A stretch of DNA of 58,376 nucleotides from Treponema sp. (GTDB lineage: Bacteria > Spirochaetota > Spirochaetia > Treponematales > Treponemataceae). Below the pieces are notes generated by a model. It was not told the DNA's origin. It saw only the letters and a list, made by a program, of their open reading frames with translations, and ran no database searches. The first letter of the stretch is position 1; the number at the start of each line of letters is the position of its first letter. The stretch lies in the NCBI RefSeq assembly GCF_024696245.1, contig NZ_JAILGZ010000024.1, forward strand, positions 1 through 58,376, given 5' to 3'. A program made the translations under genes and the position numbers. This document shows positions 1 to 14,468 of the stretch, piece after piece.

Positions 1-1107
1 GGTAAGCTTACATCCAATGAAACTTTCCTTGTAAGAAAAGATTTGTACGAAACTCTTGGCAGACCTGACATGACAACTCCTGAAGGATTCCTTAAGGCCC
101 TCCGCAATGCAAAGAAAATGTTCCCTAATGTAAACGGTCAGGCCCTTATTCCTTTTGGTACTACAGAATTTACTGACACAGGATGTTCCCAGCTTCAGGC
201 AGCTCTTTCTCACTTCCTTGCAATTGATCCTGAAGTAGATGGAGAATTTGTAGATGTAAATCTTGGTCTTACAGAAAATGAAGAATACCTGAGATGGCTT
301 AAAGTATTGCGCATTGCATATCAGGAAAAACTTCTTACTAAAGAAATGTTTATTGACAAGAGATCACAGATAGAAGAAAAGGCTTCAAACGGCCGTTACT
401 TCTGTATGCTCTATCAGAACTGGGATATGCAGACAGCACAGAATACCCTTTATGCAAGGGACCCTGATTCAATTTATATTGCTGTTCCTGGTCCTAAAAA
501 CAGTAAGGGTGATGATCCTGTTCTTGCAGGTGGTGGAATCTCTGGATGGACAATCACATTGATTTCTAAAAAGTGTAAGGATAAGGGTAAGGCAATTCAG
601 TTCCTTACTTACCTTATAAGTGAAGAAGGACAGATGGATACTAACTTTGGTATTAAGGGCGAGACCTGGGATTACAACGAGGCAGGTATTCCTGAACTTT
701 ACCCAGAAATCAGGGCTCTTGATTCAAACAATAAAAATCAGCAGGAAACAGAAATCGGTGTTCAGTACACTTACTGGATGCTTATGGATACAGCATGGCA
801 GACACAGTGGCCTGTTGAATATGCTCCTTCTTTAGGACAGCCACAGCTCTGGACAATTCCTTATGTTCACTCTTATGCAGTATATGATGGTCTTACAATT
901 CCAAGTGGTTCTGATGAAGACTTGATTTATGCAGACATTCAGCGTAGGTGGGGTAAGGTACTTCCTGAACTTATTCAGGCAGAAACTGATGAAGAGTTTG
1001 ATTCTATTGTTGCAGAGTTTAATGTTTATAAACGCAGCAAGGGAATTGATAAAGTTAAGGCTCTTCAGACAAAGCTTATGAAGGAAAATAAACTCAAGCT
1101 TCGTTAA
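1..1107 (+). CDS. extracellular sugar-type solute-binding protein of an ABC importer (5' partial)
   Basis: The reading frame is open from base 1, so the N-terminus, signal peptide and first lobe lie outside the window; the TTG at 43 is an internal Leu codon, not a start. The visible part has the character of family-1 extracellular solute-binding proteins: a segment around 'RPDMTTPEGFLKAL', a GGGISGW stretch typical of the ligand cleft, and a later 'AIQFLTYLISEEGQ' helix in the second lobe. Such proteins capture oligosaccharides outside the inner membrane and deliver them to two permeases and an MsmX/UgpC-type ATPase. The permeases are not in this window. An ATPase of the right type sits alone at 52085-53302. 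The gene ends at a strong terminator and is followed by glycan-degrading genes, so a glucan-derived sugar is a plausible ligand, but the substrate is not readable from sequence. Confidence 0.85.
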   Translation, partial: GKLTSNETFLVRKDLYETLGRPDMTTPEGFLKALRNAKKMFPNVNGQALIPFGTTEFTDTGCSQLQAALSHFLAIDPEVDGEFVDVNLGLTENEEYLRWLKVLRIAYQEKLLTKEMFIDKRSQIEEKASNGRYFCMLYQNWDMQTAQNTLYARDPDSIYIAVPGPKNSKGDDPVLAGGGISGWTITLISKKCKDKGKAIQFLTYLISEEGQMDTNFGIKGETWDYNEAGIPELYPEIRALDSNNKNQQETEIGVQYTYWMLMDTAWQTQWPVEYAPSLGQPQLWTIPYVHSYAVYDGLTIPSGSDEDLIYADIQRRWGKVLPELIQAETDEEFDSIVAEFNVYKRSKGIDKVKALQTKLMKENKLKLR

Positions 1108-1297: not shown

Positions 1298-2074
1298 ATG
1301 AAAAAACTTTTAACAGCAGCAGTTTCATGTTTTGCTTTGTTTTCTCTTACATCATGTCTGACAATACATGCAAAGAAAACTGTGGAACTTCCAGAAAAAA
1401 TCAAGGCTGAACTCAATGGCCAGAGTGTAAAAGTAGAGAAAGAAGCACTTTCATATTTTTACTATTCAGAGGAGCTTGTTCCTGTTATTGATGGTAACTT
1501 TTCTGAGTGGAAAGGTTTGGAAGGAGTTCACTCAAGACAGCAGGTATATGGTGGAAGATTTAATCCTGATAATGCAGACGGTTTCTTTGTAGCCAGAACT
1601 GATGGAAGCAATCTTTATATTTACGCAGATGTTACTGACAATGATGCCCGTGTAAATGAATATGAAGTTCCACAGGCATGGCGTGGAGACGGTATTGAAT
1701 TCTTCTTTGGAACTGATACAAGCAAACACACTGCATTTAAGGAAAATGATTCAAGAGTAAGAATTGTTCCAAGAAGCAAGAGTGATATTTTTGATGTAGC
1801 AATTGGTCTTAACGATGCTCCAATTGAATCAAGTGATATAGAAGCAGCAGTTGTTTTTAATTCAAAGGGATACAAGGTAGAAGTAAAGGTTCCTCTCAGT
1901 CTTCTTGGATCAAAGGAACTTAAGCTTAAGCAGAAAGTTCGTGCAGACTTCCAGGTAAATGATGCTGATGACGGAAAAGAAAGAACAGGCCTTCTTCACT
2001 GGAACAGCCCTAATGACAACACCTATTCAGATCCTTCTTCATGGGGTGACGGTAAAGTTATAGCCCTTCCATAA
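1298..2074 (+). CDS. lipoprotein with a CBM9-like carbohydrate-binding domain
   Basis: 258 residues. The N-terminus is a lipoprotein signal with lipobox ending LTSC (Cys20), so the mature protein should be lipid-anchored. Residues about 60-255 resemble the family 9 carbohydrate-binding / DOMON-like fold: 'VIDGNFSEWKG', 'LYIYADVTDNDA', 'WRGDGIEFFFGTD' and 'KVEVKVPLSLLG' are in the expected order (first strand with DG-x-W, paired Tyr/Asp strand, DG-hE-hhhD motif). No catalytic domain is visible. A GGGGGA ribosome site lies 5 bases before ATG 1298. It is the first gene of a same-strand run with a glycosidase-barrel fusion (27 bases downstream), a GH16 enzyme and another lipoprotein. A role in holding polysaccharide at the cell surface is inferred. 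The exact ligand is unknown; Thermotoga CBM9 binds reducing ends of glucans and xylans. Confidence 0.8.
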   Translation: MKKLLTAAVSCFALFSLTSCLTIHAKKTVELPEKIKAELNGQSVKVEKEALSYFYYSEELVPVIDGNFSEWKGLEGVHSRQQVYGGRFNPDNADGFFVARTDGSNLYIYADVTDNDARVNEYEVPQAWRGDGIEFFFGTDTSKHTAFKENDSRVRIVPRSKSDIFDVAIGLNDAPIESSDIEAAVVFNSKGYKVEVKVPLSLLGSKELKLKQKVRADFQVNDADDGKERTGLLHWNSPNDNTYSDPSSWGDGKVIALP

Positions 2075-2101: not shown

Positions 2102-5100
2102 ATGTTAAAAAAGAAACTTGCTATATTTGCAGCTGCTTTACTTTCCTTTGCAACAGCTGTTTCTGCGGAAAAAATTACAGTAAGGCAGGATGCCGGGGGA
2201 TGGAAAATCTATGACGGTAAAACTGCTGTAGAAATTAAAGGTATAGTATGGTCCTTTACTCCAATCGGAGAAAGCTTCAGCTATAATCTTTTTGCTCAGG
2301 ATGATGCATTCATTCAGAAAATGATTGATACTGATATGCCTATGCTTAAGGCAATGGGTGTAAATACTATCCGCTGTTTTACTACAATTCCTCCAAAGTG
2401 GGTAGAATACATTTATACTAAATACGGTATTTACACTATGATTAACGACCTTCTTGGCCGTTACGGTGTCAGTGTAAACGGTACCTGGTATGCTCAGACA
2501 GATTACTCTGATTTTTATACACGTCAGACTCTTATTGAGCAGGCCCGTCAGACAGCTCTTGCATACAAAGACTGCAAGGGTGTAATCATGTACATGTTTG
2601 GTAATGAATCAAACTACGGTCTTGTATGGTCTTCTACAGAAATTGAAGATCTTCCTGTTGGTGATCAGAATGTTGTAAAGGCTGCATATCTTTATGACCT
2701 TCTTGAACAGGCAATGGCTGTATGTAAGGATGTAGATCCTAATCGTCCTATTGGCATTGTAAACGGTGACGTAGGAAACCTTGAACTCATTGCAAAACTT
2801 TGTCCTTCCCTTGATATTCTTGGTGTAAACGTATACCGCGGATACAAGGCATACGACAGTCTTTATGAAAACGTAGCAGATGTTCTTAACAAGCCTATTG
2901 TATTTACAGAATTTGGTGCTGATGCTTATAACGATATCCTTCATCAGGAAGATCAGACTGCCCAGCTTACATATATGAAGAGCCAGTGGCAGGAAATCTA
3001 TGAACAGTCATACGGAAAGGGTAAGTGCCAGAATATTCTTGGTGGTTACGTATTTGAATGGATGGATGAATGGTGGAAGCGCTATCAGACAAAAAATCTT
3101 GATCTTCATGACGACGCATCATGGGCTAATGCAGGTTATGACATTGACTATCGCGAAGGTGTAAACAATATGTCGGAAGAGTGGTTTGGTATTTGCGGTC
3201 AGAGCCCTCTTAAAGAAAACGGCATTAACGTTCGTATTCCACGTGCAGCTTATTACATGCTTAAGGATGTATGGTCTATGTCACTTTACAACTCTTCAAG
3301 CCAGGAAGTTGCCCGTAAGTTTGCTTCCCTTAATGATGCAGAATACATTGCAAGGGGAAATGAAAAATCAATCAAGCAGACTCTTAACGAAAACAAAAAA
3401 GTAGAAATAAGTCAGCTTACAGCTACTGTAAATGCTACAACTCCAGTTTATCTTAACGCCCTTATTGATGACATTAAGGACGGAACCCGTAACTGGGCAA
3501 GTGACTTCCGCTATAAGAATGCTGAAGGTGAAATCAATGAACCAACAGTTACAGCAGAAGCAACTCTTGGTGTAACAGTAAGACCTTTTGAAAATCTTGA
3601 AGGAGAAGCTGTTATTAAGGCAGTAACTGGTGAACCTTATACAAGAATCGCTGATCACTGGGCTTCTTATTATGAAGACACAGGAAATCTTTACGGAAAC
3701 AATTCCAGTGACGAAGATCAGATTCAGTATGTAGATGTTTACTCTGCAAGCTTTAACTATACAAATGATATGTTTGACCTTAATGGTTATTACCATGTTG
3801 GTCATGCAGGTTTTGAAGGTAAGGGAGATCCTTTCTGTATTTCTGCAGAAGGCTTTGATATTATCGGTTACGATACTTACGGTTCAAAGGCTCCAATCGC
3901 TCTTGAATTTATTGGTCATGGACTTCTTGAAGGTCTTGAAGTTATTGGTGGTCCGGAAATTGTCGGTGGTGCATGTCCACAGGTTCAGGCAAATTACTTT
4001 AAGTGGATTCCTTCTGTAGGACCTCTTGATGGTATCGTATTTAATGCAACTGCAGCTGCAGAATTTGCTTCAAGTGAAAATGTTCTTATCGATCCTTATA
4101 ACGGATATGGCGGAGGCTACAAGGCATCTGTTTATGGAGAAACTTACATCATGCCTTGGTTCCAGCTTAAGGCAGGAGTGCTTACTGCAGGTTCAGAAAA
4201 AATCGGTGCTTACTATATTAATGGTGACAAAGAAATCGATCAGGTTGACTTCCTTGATACTCTTGGTGCTCAGATTGAACTTGGTACAAATATGTTCCAG
4301 CACAGCTACATCTTTACAAAGGCAATCTATCGTGGTGTTGTAGCTGATACAAATGCTGCTATTGCAAGAGGAAGTTTCTTTACAGCTGATTCAGGAAGCG
4401 GTAACCGTTTTGAAGTTCAGCTTGGTGCAGAACTTACTTATGGAGACATGGTATTTAAACCTGTTGTACGTGCCCGCACTCCACTTGAAAAGCCAATGGG
4501 ACGTTCCCTTGTAAGTGGTTCTCCATTTGTTGTAGGTCTTGGAAACCGTCAGGCCGTAGAAGTAGAAGCAGTATTTACTTATGATCCTGAAGGTGGTACA
4601 TGGTTCCACGAATGGAACAGCGAAGATATTGAAGGTGCTCCATGGGCATTCAGTGTAACAGGTCTTTATCAGCTTTATGCAGGTAAGACAGATAACCTCT
4701 GTTATAAGAGTGATTCAAAGACAACTGTTAACCGCAACGACGGAACTACAGTTACAGACTATGAATGGTATGACGGCGGTGCTCTTGATCTTCAGAATAA
4801 CCTCTTCCAGGTTGGAACAAGATGGGTACTTAATCCACCACAGGTTCCAGGCTTAAGGGCAATTATCAATGCAAACGTTGGACGCCTTTCTGCTTCTACT
4901 GGTGCATGGGAAGATGCAGGTAGTGATGAGTTCTGTACATTCGTAAGCGGTGGAATTGCTGCACGTTACAAGCACTTTATTGGAAGCCTTGACTGTACTG
5001 TAAACGGATGGGGTACCGAAAGCTGGTGGCGTGACTTTAACATGACATTCCCACTTCAGTACACACTTGACCTGGCTTATGCATTCGGAACAAATCCATC

Positions 5101-5254
5101 ATTCCTTGACAGTGCAAACCGTATTGGTCTTAAGATTGTTGGAAAGAACTTTGGTGAAGATTCTTCTGATGCATACGGTGCCCTTCCTTACGGTGCTTCT
5201 GTTGACGGAGCAATGTATATGGAAGTAACAACTTATTTCAGCATCGGTCTGTAA
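2102..5254 (+). CDS. secreted GH-A clan glycosidase fused to a C-terminal outer-membrane beta-barrel-like domain
   Basis: 1050 residues with a Sec signal peptide (cleavage near Ala22). Residues about 25-395 form a TIM-barrel glycosidase of clan GH-A, closest in feel to GH2/GH5-like and beta-glucanosyltransferase catalytic domains: 'GVNTIRCF' on an early strand, FGNES with candidate acid/base Glu169, FTEFGADA with candidate nucleophile Glu270, and GYVFEWMDEWW (about 315-325) as the aromatic substrate platform. Residues about 400-480 look like a linker or small domain. Residues about 480-1050 are a long series of alternating hydrophobic/polar strands rich in Gly, Tyr and Asn with short turns, ending in '...TTYFSIGL', as in treponemal outer-membrane beta-barrels. 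Ribosome site AAGGAG precedes ATG 2102. It sits between a CBM9 lipoprotein and a GH16 laminarinase-type gene, so beta-1,3/1,4-glucan is the likely substrate. The exact GH family and barrel identity are not certain. Confidence 0.75.
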   Translation: MLKKKLAIFAAALLSFATAVSAEKITVRQDAGGWKIYDGKTAVEIKGIVWSFTPIGESFSYNLFAQDDAFIQKMIDTDMPMLKAMGVNTIRCFTTIPPKWVEYIYTKYGIYTMINDLLGRYGVSVNGTWYAQTDYSDFYTRQTLIEQARQTALAYKDCKGVIMYMFGNESNYGLVWSSTEIEDLPVGDQNVVKAAYLYDLLEQAMAVCKDVDPNRPIGIVNGDVGNLELIAKLCPSLDILGVNVYRGYKAYDSLYENVADVLNKPIVFTEFGADAYNDILHQEDQTAQLTYMKSQWQEIYEQSYGKGKCQNILGGYVFEWMDEWWKRYQTKNLDLHDDASWANAGYDIDYREGVNNMSEEWFGICGQSPLKENGINVRIPRAAYYMLKDVWSMSLYNSSSQEVARKFASLNDAEYIARGNEKSIKQTLNENKKVEISQLTATVNATTPVYLNALIDDIKDGTRNWASDFRYKNAEGEINEPTVTAEATLGVTVRPFENLEGEAVIKAVTGEPYTRIADHWASYYEDTGNLYGNNSSDEDQIQYVDVYSASFNYTNDMFDLNGYYHVGHAGFEGKGDPFCISAEGFDIIGYDTYGSKAPIALEFIGHGLLEGLEVIGGPEIVGGACPQVQANYFKWIPSVGPLDGIVFNATAAAEFASSENVLIDPYNGYGGGYKASVYGETYIMPWFQLKAGVLTAGSEKIGAYYINGDKEIDQVDFLDTLGAQIELGTNMFQHSYIFTKAIYRGVVADTNAAIARGSFFTADSGSGNRFEVQLGAELTYGDMVFKPVVRARTPLEKPMGRSLVSGSPFVVGLGNRQAVEVEAVFTYDPEGGTWFHEWNSEDIEGAPWAFSVTGLYQLYAGKTDNLCYKSDSKTTVNRNDGTTVTDYEWYDGGALDLQNNLFQVGTRWVLNPPQVPGLRAIINANVGRLSASTGAWEDAGSDEFCTFVSGGIAARYKHFIGSLDCTVNGWGTESWWRDFNMTFPLQYTLDLAYAFGTNPSFLDSANRIGLKIVGKNFGEDSSDAYGALPYGASVDGAMYMEVTTYFSIGL

Positions 5255-5297: not shown

Positions 5298-5318
5298 AGG
5301 GGTTAAATGGAGGAAGAA

Positions 5319-6233
5319 ATGATTAAATTAAAATATAAAGTTCTGGCAGCAACAGCCGCAGCAATTCTTGCATCCAGTGCAGTAATTACTTCATGCTGTT
5401 TTTTGCCTGATGACGATGAAAAATTAGATCTTAGTGAATATGAACTTTACTGGTGTGATGAGTTTGATGGAAGTTCACTTGATACTGACACCTGGAATGA
5501 ACAGGTATGGGCTTCTGGAAAAGTAAACAATGAAGTTCAGTCTTATGCAGCAGGACATGCAACTATTGTAGAAGATGATGAAGCAACAGACGGAAGTGTT
5601 CTCCGCCTTACAGCAACTTCTTCCAATGGTTCAACCTGGGTCAGCTCAAGAATTGATACAGCTACTAACTTTAACTTTAAGTATGGTTATGTAGAAGCCC
5701 GCATTAAAATGCCTGTAGCTTATGATTCTTCATCTGGAAGTAACGTAATTGAAAATAAGGGTGTATGGCCTGCTTTCTGGATGATGCCTGAAAATGTTTA
5801 TGACGATGAAGGTGAATCAACAGATGGTGGTGTATACGGTGTATGGCCACGCTCAGGTGAATTAGACATTATGGAATATTCTCCATCTACAAGTGGAGAA
5901 AAAACTTATTCTACAATTCATCATGCAACATCAAAAACAGATGCGACAGACAGTTACTCATCTCTTGGTGATAAAACTTTTGACAATCCTTATGAATGGC
6001 ATACCTACGGACTTTTGTGGACCAGCGGAACTGTAGAAGCTTACTATGACGGACAGTCCCTTGGTACAATTTATGCCAATACAGGTAACAACTGGGCTAA
6101 GTGGCCTTATGACCAGAACTTCTATATCATTCTTAACCTTGCCATGGGCGGAACTTTAGGCGGCAGCATTAACTCTGACATGAGAAGAGCTGAATATGAT
6201 ATCGACTATGTTCGCGTATACAAGGCTAAATAA
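5319..6233 (+). CDS. GH16 endo-beta-glucanase (laminarinase type), lipoprotein
   Basis: 304 residues from ATG 5319. This start is preferred over ATG 5307 because the GGAGG ribosome site (5309-5313) overlaps the earlier ATG and is correctly spaced for 5319. Signal with lipobox VITSC (Cys26) marks a lipoprotein. The body is a GH16 jelly-roll: 'YELYWCDEFDGSSLDTDTW' opening, KYGYVEARIKMP strand, KGVWPAFWMMP, and the catalytic motif GELDIMEYS (Glu181 nucleophile, Asp183, Glu186 acid/base). The ExDxxE form with the extra Met is the beta-bulge type found in laminarinases and lichenases. 'EWHTYGLLWTSG' and 'NFYIILNLAMGG' are the usual later strands, and 'YDIDYVRVYK' is the standard C-terminus. It should cleave beta-1,3 or mixed-linked glucans at the cell surface. 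It lies in the same run as the CBM9 lipoprotein and the glycosidase-barrel. Confidence 0.93.
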   Translation: MIKLKYKVLAATAAAILASSAVITSCCFLPDDDEKLDLSEYELYWCDEFDGSSLDTDTWNEQVWASGKVNNEVQSYAAGHATIVEDDEATDGSVLRLTATSSNGSTWVSSRIDTATNFNFKYGYVEARIKMPVAYDSSSGSNVIENKGVWPAFWMMPENVYDDEGESTDGGVYGVWPRSGELDIMEYSPSTSGEKTYSTIHHATSKTDATDSYSSLGDKTFDNPYEWHTYGLLWTSGTVEAYYDGQSLGTIYANTGNNWAKWPYDQNFYIILNLAMGGTLGGSINSDMRRAEYDIDYVRVYKAK

Positions 6234-6253: not shown

Positions 6254-6868
6254 ATGAAAAAGATTTGTAAAGCTTTTGCTGCGGCAGTATTTGTTCTTTC
6301 TGCCTTTGGATTTACGGCCTGCAATGATGCAATCGTAGATGATGGAAGTAATGTTAAGAGTTATATCGATAATGCAGGCTCCGGAGGTGGTGCCGTTCCT
6401 TTTAAAAGTTTTGAAGGCTGTGACCTTCAGATTTGGGTAGATACTTTTACCGCTACTCAGACTTCAGAAGCTGAACTTTTTACAGTTGGTTCTGTAGGCT
6501 GGTGGGGAGGGGCCTTTGTTAATAAGGGTTCTGTTGGACCGACAGATGCTGGTGTTGTAACTTATGATATGTCTAATGTGGCAACAATTACTTTTGAAGC
6601 CATGATTTCAGAAGCTGGAAGTATCTGGGTTTCTACAAGTGCTTCTGATTCAACTGCAGGTGCTAAAGTCGGTAAAACTTTCAGCATTACTACAGAATGG
6701 GATGAATATACATTTAATATTTCTGACGGAACAAATGCAGTATCAGACCATGATTATGGTGTATTTGCAATCGGCGGTTCAAATTCTTCTGGTACAGTTG
6801 TTTACATAAAGAACATCGCCTTCTACGACGCCTCAGGCAACGAAATCGTTCCTGGTGTCAATGACTGA
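6254..6868 (+). CDS. small lipoprotein with a beta-sandwich (carbohydrate-binding-like) domain
   Basis: 204 residues. Signal with lipobox FTAC (Cys23), then a Gly/Ser-rich spacer to about residue 50 and a compact domain of predicted beta strands: 'DLQIWVDTF', 'GWWGGAFVN', 'VATITFEAMISEAGSIWVSTS', 'DEYTFNISDGT', 'GVFAIGGSNSSGTVVYIKNIAFYD'. The ending, a strand plus 'IKNIAFYDASGNEI', is typical of CBM-like jelly-rolls that close with a description of bound ligand geometry. Exposed Trp residues (WWGG) would suit sugar stacking. I cannot name a CBM family. GGGGGA ribosome site before ATG 6254. Last gene of the glycan run; a terminator follows within 90 bases. Confidence 0.65.
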   Translation: MKKICKAFAAAVFVLSAFGFTACNDAIVDDGSNVKSYIDNAGSGGGAVPFKSFEGCDLQIWVDTFTATQTSEAELFTVGSVGWWGGAFVNKGSVGPTDAGVVTYDMSNVATITFEAMISEAGSIWVSTSASDSTAGAKVGKTFSITTEWDEYTFNISDGTNAVSDHDYGVFAIGGSNSSGTVVYIKNIAFYDASGNEIVPGVND

Positions 6869-6871
6869 GAT

Positions 6872-6954
6872 ATGATTAGTAAATAGTCATAAATTAAATC
6901 CTGTAGACAGGTTTTCATGGAAGAAAATTTTATGAAAACTTGTCTTTTTTTTTT
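6872..6954 (+). repeat. two-hairpin RNA element, copy A (contains the operon terminator)
   Basis: Hairpin ATGATT/AGTCAT (6872-6890), then the linker AAATTAAATCCT (6891-6902), then a 13-bp perfect stem (6906-6918 with 6932-6944) and ten T (6945-6954). It follows the stop codon of the small lipoprotein by three bases. The same hairpin-linker-terminator order, with near-identical linker, recurs at 7035-7112. Confidence 0.7.
6906..6954 (+). terminator. intrinsic terminator of the GH operon
   Basis: GACAGGTTTTCAT pairs perfectly with ATGAAAACTTGTC apart from one G-U pair, and ten T residues follow. Confidence 0.93.
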
Positions 6955-7252: not shown

Positions 7253-8743
7253 ATGAAAAGAATATTAACATTTATCTTAACATCAACCCTTGCTCTTTCC
7301 CTTGCAAGCGGTCAGGATTTTTCTGAAGATGATTTTCCTCCTCCACCTCCAGGAGCTTTTGATATGGATGGTGATTTTGAACCAGGTAATGGTAAGGGGG
7401 GAGACGGTTTTGGAACAGTGGCTGACGAAAAGGAACCTGACCTTAAGGCAGTAAAAGTTCTGGAAGATGGAGATTCTTTTACCGGAGTTAAGTTCACATC
7501 AAAAAGTCAGGATCAGAGTGTTCTTCTTGCAGAAGATGGGATTAAGGCATCTCTGTCGGATTCAACTTTAAATAAAAAAAAGGGAGATACTTCCAAGGTT
7601 GGACAGAGTAACTTCTATGGACTTAATGCAGCAGTTGTAGCAAAAAGCGGAGCAAATCTTCAATTAAACAATGTTACAATCCGTACAATTGCAGAAGGTT
7701 CAAATGCGGTTTTTGCAACAGGAGAAGGTTCCCGTATAACAATAGACGGAATTAAAATTCAGACAGATGAAGATTCTTCCAGAGGTCTTGATGCAACTTA
7801 CGGTGGAACAGTAGAAGCAAAAAATGTAGACATTACTACTAAGGGTGCTCACTGTGCAGCTTTTGCAACAGACAGGGGAGAAGGCAACATTATTGTAGAT
7901 TCAGGTAAGGCTTCAACAGCAGGCCAGGGTTCTCCTGTAATTTATTCAACAGGTAATATTCGTGTTGCAAATATTACAGGCAGTGCTACAGGTTCAGAAA
8001 TTGCAGTTATCGAAGGAAAAAATTCCATATCCATTACTGATTCAGAGATTTCAGGGGGTACTGATTCAAGAAGGGATACTGGCTGCGGCATAATGCTTTA
8101 CCAGAGTATGAGTGGTGATGCAAACAGGGGTACTTCAGTATTCAGTGCCAGCAATTCAAGACTTATCAGCAATTCTGACGGAGCTTTCTTTTACGTAACA
8201 AATACTGATGCAAAAATAAATCTTTCCAATACTGAGCTTGTAAATTCTTCCGGTATTCTTCTTCAGGTTACTCAGAATTATTCATCAAGAGGCTGGGGAA
8301 AACAGGGAGCTAACGGCGGAACTCTTGAGTTTAATGCTCAAAATCAGCAGCTTGCCGGAAAGGTAATTACAGATTCAATCAGTAAGATAACAATGAATCT
8401 TAAAAATGGCACAAGCTTTAAGGGTTCAATTAACGAAGAAAAATCCGGTCCTGTTAACTTGAATATTTCTAAGGATGCCACTGTTGAATTAACAGCAAAT
8501 TCCTATGTAAATATTCTCTCAGACGGAGATTCATCTTTTGCAAACATTAAGTCCAATGGTTATACCCTCTTTTACAATAAGAATGCAGAAGAGAACAAGG
8601 CTTTAGGCAACAAGGTTATTAATCTTGCCGATGGTGGAAAAATTATCGGAATAGAAATGACCTGGGAAGAAGTGACTCCTGTAAAAACTCAAAAGCAGGG
8701 AAGGCCTGGTAAACCGCCTGCAGGTGCAAAACCAAAATTTTAA
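7253..8743 (+). CDS. secreted right-handed beta-helix surface protein
   Basis: 496 residues with a Sec signal peptide (cleavage near ASG-QD at 20). Residues 21-70 are acidic and Pro/Gly-rich, including a five-proline run, as expected of an extended spacer. From about 75 to 470 the protein is built of imperfect repeats of the kind 'GANLQLNNVTIRT', 'GSRITIDGIKIQT', 'GGTVEAKNVDITT', 'SISITDSEISGG', 'AKINLSNTELVNS', spaced roughly 20-25 residues. This is the signature of a parallel beta-helix as in adhesins and pectin-type proteins. No lyase catalytic triad is visible. The C-terminus (about 475-496) is basic and Pro/Gly-rich. CAGGAG ribosome site at good spacing. It stands alone between the structured RNA and thyX. 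An adhesive or shape-forming surface role is inferred only. Confidence 0.75.
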   Translation: MKRILTFILTSTLALSLASGQDFSEDDFPPPPPGAFDMDGDFEPGNGKGGDGFGTVADEKEPDLKAVKVLEDGDSFTGVKFTSKSQDQSVLLAEDGIKASLSDSTLNKKKGDTSKVGQSNFYGLNAAVVAKSGANLQLNNVTIRTIAEGSNAVFATGEGSRITIDGIKIQTDEDSSRGLDATYGGTVEAKNVDITTKGAHCAAFATDRGEGNIIVDSGKASTAGQGSPVIYSTGNIRVANITGSATGSEIAVIEGKNSISITDSEISGGTDSRRDTGCGIMLYQSMSGDANRGTSVFSASNSRLISNSDGAFFYVTNTDAKINLSNTELVNSSGILLQVTQNYSSRGWGKQGANGGTLEFNAQNQQLAGKVITDSISKITMNLKNGTSFKGSINEEKSGPVNLNISKDATVELTANSYVNILSDGDSSFANIKSNGYTLFYNKNAEENKALGNKVINLADGGKIIGIEMTWEEVTPVKTQKQGRPGKPPAGAKPKF

Positions 8744-13726: not shown

Positions 13727-13757
13727 AGAAGAAAAGAGAACAATAAAGGTGGTTTAT

Positions 13758-14468
13758 ATGAAATTAAAATCTATTGTACTTGTAAGTGCAGCTCTTCTTG
13801 CAGGAAGCCTTCCTGTTTTTGCAAAAAAATCTTCAGCAAAAAAATTTGCTGTTAATGCAGAAGAATCAGCTGTTTTGTATCTGACCTTTGATTCAGAAAA
13901 TGAAGCCGGCTTTACATATAAGGGAAGCCCTGTTAAAGGAGAAGGCTTAAATGGTCAGGCCCTTGTTTTTGACGGACAGGATGATTACCTTGAGCTTGAT
14001 AAAAAAATCCTTGAAGGTGAGGGACTTACTTTTTCCGTAAACATTAAAGCTGAAAGCTGGTCTTACTGGGAACGTATCTTTGACTTTGGTAACGGTTCAG
14101 ATTGTGACGTATGGCTGGGCTATGATCAGGCAACAAAAGCCCTTCGTCTTGCAGCAGGAAGAGCCAGTGCCCTTGCACCCCTTCCTCCTGTAAATGAATG
14201 GACAAATGTTACAGTAACCTTTGGCGAAAAGAATGCAGTTATCTATGTAAACGGAAAGCTTTCCCAGAAACTTTCAATTGGTGTAAGTCCACAGAAAGTT
14301 CTTGCCAGCGTAAAAGGTATTTATGTAGGAAAATCCAACTGGAACGATCCTATGTTTAAAGGAAGCATGGACGATATCTTTATTGCAACAAGAGTATTTT
14401 CTGCAGAAGAAGTTGCTTCTCTTGCAGCAGGTATAGTTGATACTTCTTCAATTGGATATCAGAAATAA
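13758..14468 (+). CDS. secreted LamG/concanavalin A-like lectin-domain protein
   Basis: 236 residues from ATG 13758, chosen because AAAGGTGG is well placed before it; the upstream GTG 13749 overlaps that site. Sec signal with cleavage near VFA-KK (about residue 23). Residues 40-230 are one LamG/ConA-like domain: 'ESAVLYLTFDSENEAGF', 'GLNGQALVFDGQDDYLELDK', 'GLTFSVNIKAESWSYWERIFDFGN', 'NEWTNVTVTFGEKNAVIYVNGKL', 'GIYVGKSNWNDPMFKGSMDDIFI', 'VFSAEEVASLAAG'. This is the full strand order of the family, including the closing 'F-x-G-x-[ML]-DDIxI' motif. There is no catalytic module, so it is a free carbohydrate-binding or envelope protein. Likely periplasmic or surface-exposed. Monocistronic with its own promoter and terminator. 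Confidence 0.88.
   Translation: MKLKSIVLVSAALLAGSLPVFAKKSSAKKFAVNAEESAVLYLTFDSENEAGFTYKGSPVKGEGLNGQALVFDGQDDYLELDKKILEGEGLTFSVNIKAESWSYWERIFDFGNGSDCDVWLGYDQATKALRLAAGRASALAPLPPVNEWTNVTVTFGEKNAVIYVNGKLSQKLSIGVSPQKVLASVKGIYVGKSNWNDPMFKGSMDDIFIATRVFSAEEVASLAAGIVDTSSIGYQK

Follow-up and report, generated by a model that had tools for sequence, protein, structure and literature searches.

How do large glycans cross the outer membrane of spirochaetes that have no SusC/SusD? We know of no description of the route. The question is raised by a gene in the stretch of Treponema sp. DNA analysed here (58,376 nucleotides, referred to as the window), whose product joins a glycoside hydrolase (GH) and a predicted outer-membrane barrel in one chain. 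Such an enzyme–pore fusion, found in gut and free-living spirochaetes, suggests that sugar chains may be cut and imported without the SusC/SusD pumps of Bacteroides. The fusion protein is made up as follows.

2102..5254, + strand: the fusion protein, 1050 aa, with a signal peptide, a GH158-like domain, a helical linker and a predicted 24-strand outer-membrane barrel
2102..2167, + strand: type I signal peptide, residues 1-22, cleavage AVSA^EK, without a lipobox (read from the sequence)
2168..3298, + strand: GH158/GH157-like clan GH-A catalytic domain, residues 23-399 (by comparison of the predicted fold)
2606..2608, + strand: codon of Glu169, the predicted acid/base in FGNES, which is invariant and falls on the NE motif of GH158 in the alignment
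2909..2911, + strand: codon of Glu270, the predicted nucleophile in FTEFG, likewise invariant and aligned with TEFG/TEWG of GH158
3299..3400, + strand: linker of two helices, residues 400-433 (AF2)
3401..5251, + strand: predicted 24-strand outer-membrane barrel, residues 434-1050, with a last strand of the BAM-signal kind (AF2, alternation and fold searches)

The earlier note on this DNA had placed the N-terminal domain in clan GH-A, with Glu169 and Glu270 as candidate catalytic residues, and both points were borne out. The sole Pfam match of the N-terminal part is the GH2 TIM barrel (PF02836, E 7e-8). A PDB sequence search with the catalytic domain returned GH158(Pro) (9oro, E 1e-8) and BuGH158 (6pal, E 2e-4), and the same GH158 pair took the top two places when the family profile was compared with the PDB (9oro 2e-10, 6pal 7e-6). 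Comparison of the predicted GH fold by VIA-align ranked GH158(Pro) first (9p2f, Z 25.2), above GH157 (9g4n, Z 24.4) and BuGH158 (6pal, Z 23.9); GH157 and some GH5 and GH2 enzymes lie within 1 Z unit of the top match. Neither E169, which is preceded by N168, nor E270 varies among 17 homologues. In the profile alignment they correspond to the acid/base (NE motif) and the nucleophile of GH158, the catalytic pair that is E137/E220 in BuGH158 (PMC7157763). The GH158 assignment is a prediction: in structural alignment the identity to known members is about 22-24%, so that the domain may represent a new sister family. By homology, the domain would be a Sec-exported, retaining, endo-acting beta-1,3-glucanase. 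It resembles the solved enzymes BuGH158 (6PAL), GH158(Pro) (9ORO) and LaGH157 in its clan GH-A fold and NE-motif catalytic pair, and, like GH158 enzymes, it sits with a GH16 in a beta-1,3-glucan locus. Unlike the Treponema protein, none of the solved GH158/GH157 members is joined to a membrane barrel. BuGH158 carries an Ig-like domain, and its signal peptide is of type II (PMC7157763).

For the C-terminal half, an outer-membrane-like barrel of some 570 residues had been proposed, an idea to be abandoned if the fold proved to be a soluble beta-sandwich or propeller. Structure prediction gave a large closed barrel of long antiparallel strands, so that the fold stood, while the length had to be corrected to about 617 residues. 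The AF2 model of the full-length protein, for which the input was a shallow alignment of 18 natural sequences, has 24-26 long antiparallel strands in residues 434-1049 (pLDDT 73.5), and at a pTM of 0.54 it gives no reliable placement of the enzyme relative to the pore. Because the VIA-align matches of the full-length model were all taken by the GH domain, the barrel was also folded alone, with a pLDDT of 78.4 and a pTM of 0.73. The strand count is 24 when the hairpin 867-891 is treated as a loop extension and 26 when it is counted, and thus even either way.

Outer-membrane barrels (TonB receptors, AlgE) make up all of the best 50 Foldseek matches of the barrel model, with E values down to 6e-11. 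Foldseek places TonB receptors, whose barrels have 22 strands, at the top, whereas VIA-align ranks the 24-strand ushers above Cir (14.1 vs 10.9): PapC (7lhh) gave Z 14.1 with 366 aligned residues at an rmsd of 5.5, and FimD (9fw9) gave Z 13.9 with 364 aligned at 4.6. The usher alignments cover model residues 32-651, which is the entire barrel domain. Hydrophobic alternation is above chance for the barrel strands combined (P 7e-7, vs P 0.63 for the GH strands). The final strand is amphipathic and ends YMEVTTYFSIGL; homologue C-termini are of the same style, with a C-terminal signal strand in all relatives. A soluble sandwich or propeller was ruled out as the C-terminal fold by the fold searches. 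That the domain is some other large soluble beta-structure and not a membrane barrel appears very improbable: AF2 is fallible on a shallow alignment and alternation is weak in several individual strands, but the overall alternation is significant, the matches are ushers, TonB receptors and porins throughout, the signal strand is kept in every relative, and the unfused copies of the barrel (see below) bear signal peptides.

The ushers FimD and PapC, which have a 24-strand barrel and a periplasmic N-terminal domain, are the best whole-domain fold matches. The Treponema barrel differs from them in having no usher match in Pfam and no plug or C-terminal domains, its chain stopping at the last strand. 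Its locus, unlike chaperone–usher systems, has no pilus genes, and the likeness is one of fold size only. No sequence family was found for the barrel domain in Pfam (to E 10), NCBIfam (to E 1) or the PDB; three PDB sequence matches were rejected as unrelated (E 0.18 or worse). No paralogue of the barrel was found in the same genome. We predict that the barrel represents a spirochaetal outer-membrane family without a name in the domain libraries searched.

Co-occurrence in other Treponema, which the earlier note had raised, was found. The fusion is present in 31 of 200 Treponema genomes, mostly as a single open frame of 1039-1082 aa; five more weak matches in this search were other GH proteins only. 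Full-length relatives of the fusion, at 37-41% identity, occur in other families of the Spirochaetota (L043-L047; L118-L120). A chimeric ORF or an assembly artefact was ruled out by the full-length open frames in these Treponema genomes and other families, and the fusion is an old one. The distribution search covered Spirochaetota only, and in a 393-genome sample of this phylum the barrel profile was found in 20 genomes and in 8 of 167 genera. One Treponema genome (G017) carries the fusion twice, in diverged forms at C1:194168-197320 and C3:361442-364594 that match the window protein at 86% and 55%, respectively.

The barrel also occurs without the enzyme. In G224 and G235, from a distant family of the phylum, it is encoded on its own, as a protein of about 595-673 aa that has a signal peptide, and in unfused homologues the first strand starts directly after the signal peptide. 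A GH of the same profile is in the cluster at all six loci (L110-L115), of which the three from G224 and the three from G235 are mutual counterparts; at L111 the barrel and GH genes are only a few bases apart. At L155 (G201) the barrel is preceded by an N-terminal extension of coiled-coil and repeat-like character in place of the GH, and such GHs lie about 3 kb downstream. Overall, a related GH is found within 3 kb at seven of the eight unfused loci with readable flanks, the exception being L154 (L100, on too short a contig, was not counted). As there are only about 5-11 profile GHs per genome, in genomes of 2.4-3.6 Mb, this proximity is not due to chance. The barrel tree requires two changes between the fused and unfused labels, and the unfused L100 and L154 share one genome with the fused L116. 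With regard to a single origin of the fusion, the two changes may mean either two fusions or later splits.

Since lone barrels adjoin GHs that have their own lipobox or sorting tail, anchoring was probably not the ancestral job of the barrel. The same observation bears on the idea of a simple tether, in which the barrel would carry no flux and would be a structural anchor, holding a periplasmic or surface glucanase close to the membrane. Enzymes may be fused to membrane proteins for placement alone, and no plug or transport motif was recognised by Pfam. We nevertheless regard a tether as distinctly improbable: a barrel kept beside separately anchored enzymes points to a job beyond anchoring, several long loops (residues 565-598 and 745-768) are strongly conserved, and 24 strands are far more than an anchor requires.

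The genes around the fusion suggest what might pass through the barrel. They are listed below, together with the part of the locus that lies on another contig of the same genome.

1..1107, + strand: ABC sugar-binding protein, C-terminal 368 residues, cut by the contig edge (Pfam SBP_bac_8)
L158:1-675 on contig C47, - strand: N-terminal part of the binding protein (matches split over C8 and C47)
1298..2074, + strand: lipoprotein with a CBM9 domain, lipobox LTSC (CBM9_1, E 5e-25; PDB CBM9 1i82, E 5e-10)
5307..6233, + strand: GH16 lipoprotein, lipobox ITSC, with the laminarinase-kind motif ELDIME (Pfam, E 1.5e-11)
6254..6868, + strand: small lipoprotein, 204 aa, lipobox FTAC, without a Pfam match and with homologues in some relatives
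6905..6945, + strand: terminator-like hairpin ending the gene run, from a consensus scan only, which found 5 such hairpins against 4.3 expected

The CBM9, GH16 and further lipoprotein that had been noticed beside the fusion were thus all recovered. The gaps between the genes for the binding protein, CBM9 protein, fusion, GH16 and small lipoprotein are 190, 27, 52 and 20 bases. In the PDB, the GH16 lipoprotein matches laminarinases and beta-1,3(4)-glucanases, with E values down to 4e-31. The small lipoprotein is probably a glycan-binding protein. Contig C47, when reversed, overlaps window positions 1-141 (141 bp, identical), which places an assembly break inside the binding-protein gene. It completes the binding protein and adds two ABC permeases as well as, in divergent orientation, a gene for a P0002 homologue (63% identity). 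P0002, at the equivalent place in L041, matches the GH149 beta-1,3-oligosaccharide phosphorylase 6HQ6 (E 4e-269). A second GH149-like phosphorylase, 49% to P0002, is encoded elsewhere in the genome (G000:C157:3581-6865, L157). Across the loci L002-L023, CBM9 is upstream of the fusion in 22 of 22 and GH16 is downstream in 21 of 22; CBM9 is also present at L043-L046 and at the distant L119-L121, and is the most constant partner of the fusion. From this gene content, including C47, the locus appears to encode a complete beta-1,3-glucan pathway of binding, cutting, import and phosphorolysis. Agreement between several independent gene families (GH158-like, GH16 and GH149) supports glucan as the probable substrate.

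The unit had also been described as one not based on SusC/SusD, in agreement with our searches. No SusD homologue (PF07980) was found in a whole-genome profile search, and the three above-cut-off matches to the TonB plug (PF07715) in the genome are all on other contigs. Within the fusion protein, Pfam found no plug domain, and the N-terminal place is occupied by the GH domain. The SusC/SusD-type glucan locus that contains BuGH158 shares with the Treponema locus the pairing of GH158 and GH16, the surface glycan-binding lipoproteins and a barrel of at least 22 strands (PMC7157763). The Treponema locus differs in having neither SusD nor a plug, in combining enzyme and barrel in one chain, in using an ABC transporter across the inner membrane and in having an adjoining gene for a cytoplasmic GH149 phosphorylase.

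The side of the membrane on which the enzyme would work can be approached from the topology of the barrel. The C-terminus and short turns of outer-membrane barrels face the periplasm. In the predicted barrel, long strand connections (mean 23 residues) alternate with short ones (mean 6.5; P 4e-4), and the short ones are on the C-terminal side. Because the number of strands is even and the short turns lie on this side, both barrel ends should be periplasmic, and adding or removing one hairpin leaves the parity of the ends unchanged. Based on this model, we lean towards a GH domain that is periplasmic by default, as the N-terminal domain of ushers is, and located at the inner opening of the pore; threading of the domain through its own barrel would be the exception. 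The proposal of the earlier note, a barrel whose main role is to keep the enzyme at the cell surface, is made doubtful by the even strand number and the short C-terminal-side turns, which point to the periplasm. As a separate observation, the longest connection on the short side, DPEGGTWFHEWNSEDIEGAP (residues 828-847, window 4583-4642), belongs to the best conserved stretches of the barrel, and its DPTP..T..N..E.AP pattern is also kept in unfused barrels.

A surface enzyme would require that the GH domain reach the outside, either by way of its own barrel or in the course of BAM assembly, in the manner of a type V autotransporter, with the barrel as an anchor and perhaps a product pore. The order of signal peptide, enzyme, helix and C-terminal barrel is indeed that of autotransporters with enzyme passengers, which likewise combine an N-terminal enzyme and a C-terminal barrel in one chain, and homologous enzymes are predicted to be surface proteins in other bacteria (PMC7157763). 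Some spirochaete homologues have a type IX sorting tail or a lipobox: the unfused GH at L155:11863 has the sorting domain TIGR04183 (25.9 bits vs a cut-off of 23), that of L110 has a type IX sorting domain just under the cut-off, and those of L111 and L113 have lipoboxes. Because of these features the related enzymes may act outside the cell, which may leave room for a surface position of the fused domain. Translocator barrels of autotransporters have 12 strands in the classical type (Va) and 16 in type Vd, whereas the Treponema barrel has about 24. Moreover, it has no autotransporter or Omp85 family match in Pfam, and its family commonly includes unfused barrels that have no passenger. We therefore consider a surface enzyme unlikely, though less so than a tether.

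Returning to a periplasmic enzyme, we give roughly equal weight to belief and doubt in the proposal that the fusion serves beta-1,3-glucan uptake as an outer-membrane protein with two functions. According to this proposal, the CBM and GH16 lipoproteins would bind and cut laminarin-like or mixed-linkage glucan, and long glucan fragments would traverse the barrel, which would act as a porin. The GH158 domain at the periplasmic mouth would cut the fragments on entry, and it may also stop so wide a pore from leaking freely. The short products would be taken up by the ABC transporter and phosphorolysed by GH149 in the cytoplasm. Both the pore activity and the order of these steps are what we infer from the predicted folds and the gene content. 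A role of the barrel as a product pore, as had been suggested, is plausible, and nothing in the analysis contradicts it. A more far-reaching version of the proposal, which we advance only tentatively, is a TonB-independent glycan importer with the hydrolase as part of the pore. Here the GH158-like domain would cover the periplasmic mouth of a 24-strand porin that has no plug, and its cutting of incoming beta-1,3-glucan chains would clear the passage and at the same time power the net influx. Such barrels, whether fused to glucanases or paired with them, would then form a new family of large glycan porins that extends across the spirochaete phylum.

If the enzyme is periplasmic, cleavage would occur at the exit of a passive pore, which differs from the TonB-driven Sus system. 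A full-text search of a library with few subscription papers found no natural fusion of a GH to a large outer-membrane barrel, which speaks weakly for novelty. The enzyme half belongs to a known kind and the logic of the locus resembles that of known glucan loci, but the barrel family is without a name in the libraries searched. The conserved fusion, together with its unfused counterparts, provides a testable candidate for the glycan route across the outer membrane and a first handle on this barrel family. As Treponema of the rumen and hindgut are concerned, the fusion may have a bearing on beta-glucan digestion in livestock.

Three further observations were made at or near these loci. The extension of the barrel relative at L155:6684-9047 is about 200 residues long, and its cluster holds a PorV-family protein and GHs, one of which has a type IX sorting domain; this genome thus shows type IX-like features within the spirochaete phylum. 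In the window, positions 7253-8743 (+ strand) encode a 496-aa protein with a signal peptide, a Pro/Gly-rich start and beta-helix-looking repeats, for which Pfam and NCBIfam gave no match. A few kilobases from the glucan locus, positions 13749-14468 (+ strand) encode a secreted protein with a LamG/concanavalin-like domain (PF13385, E 8e-21).
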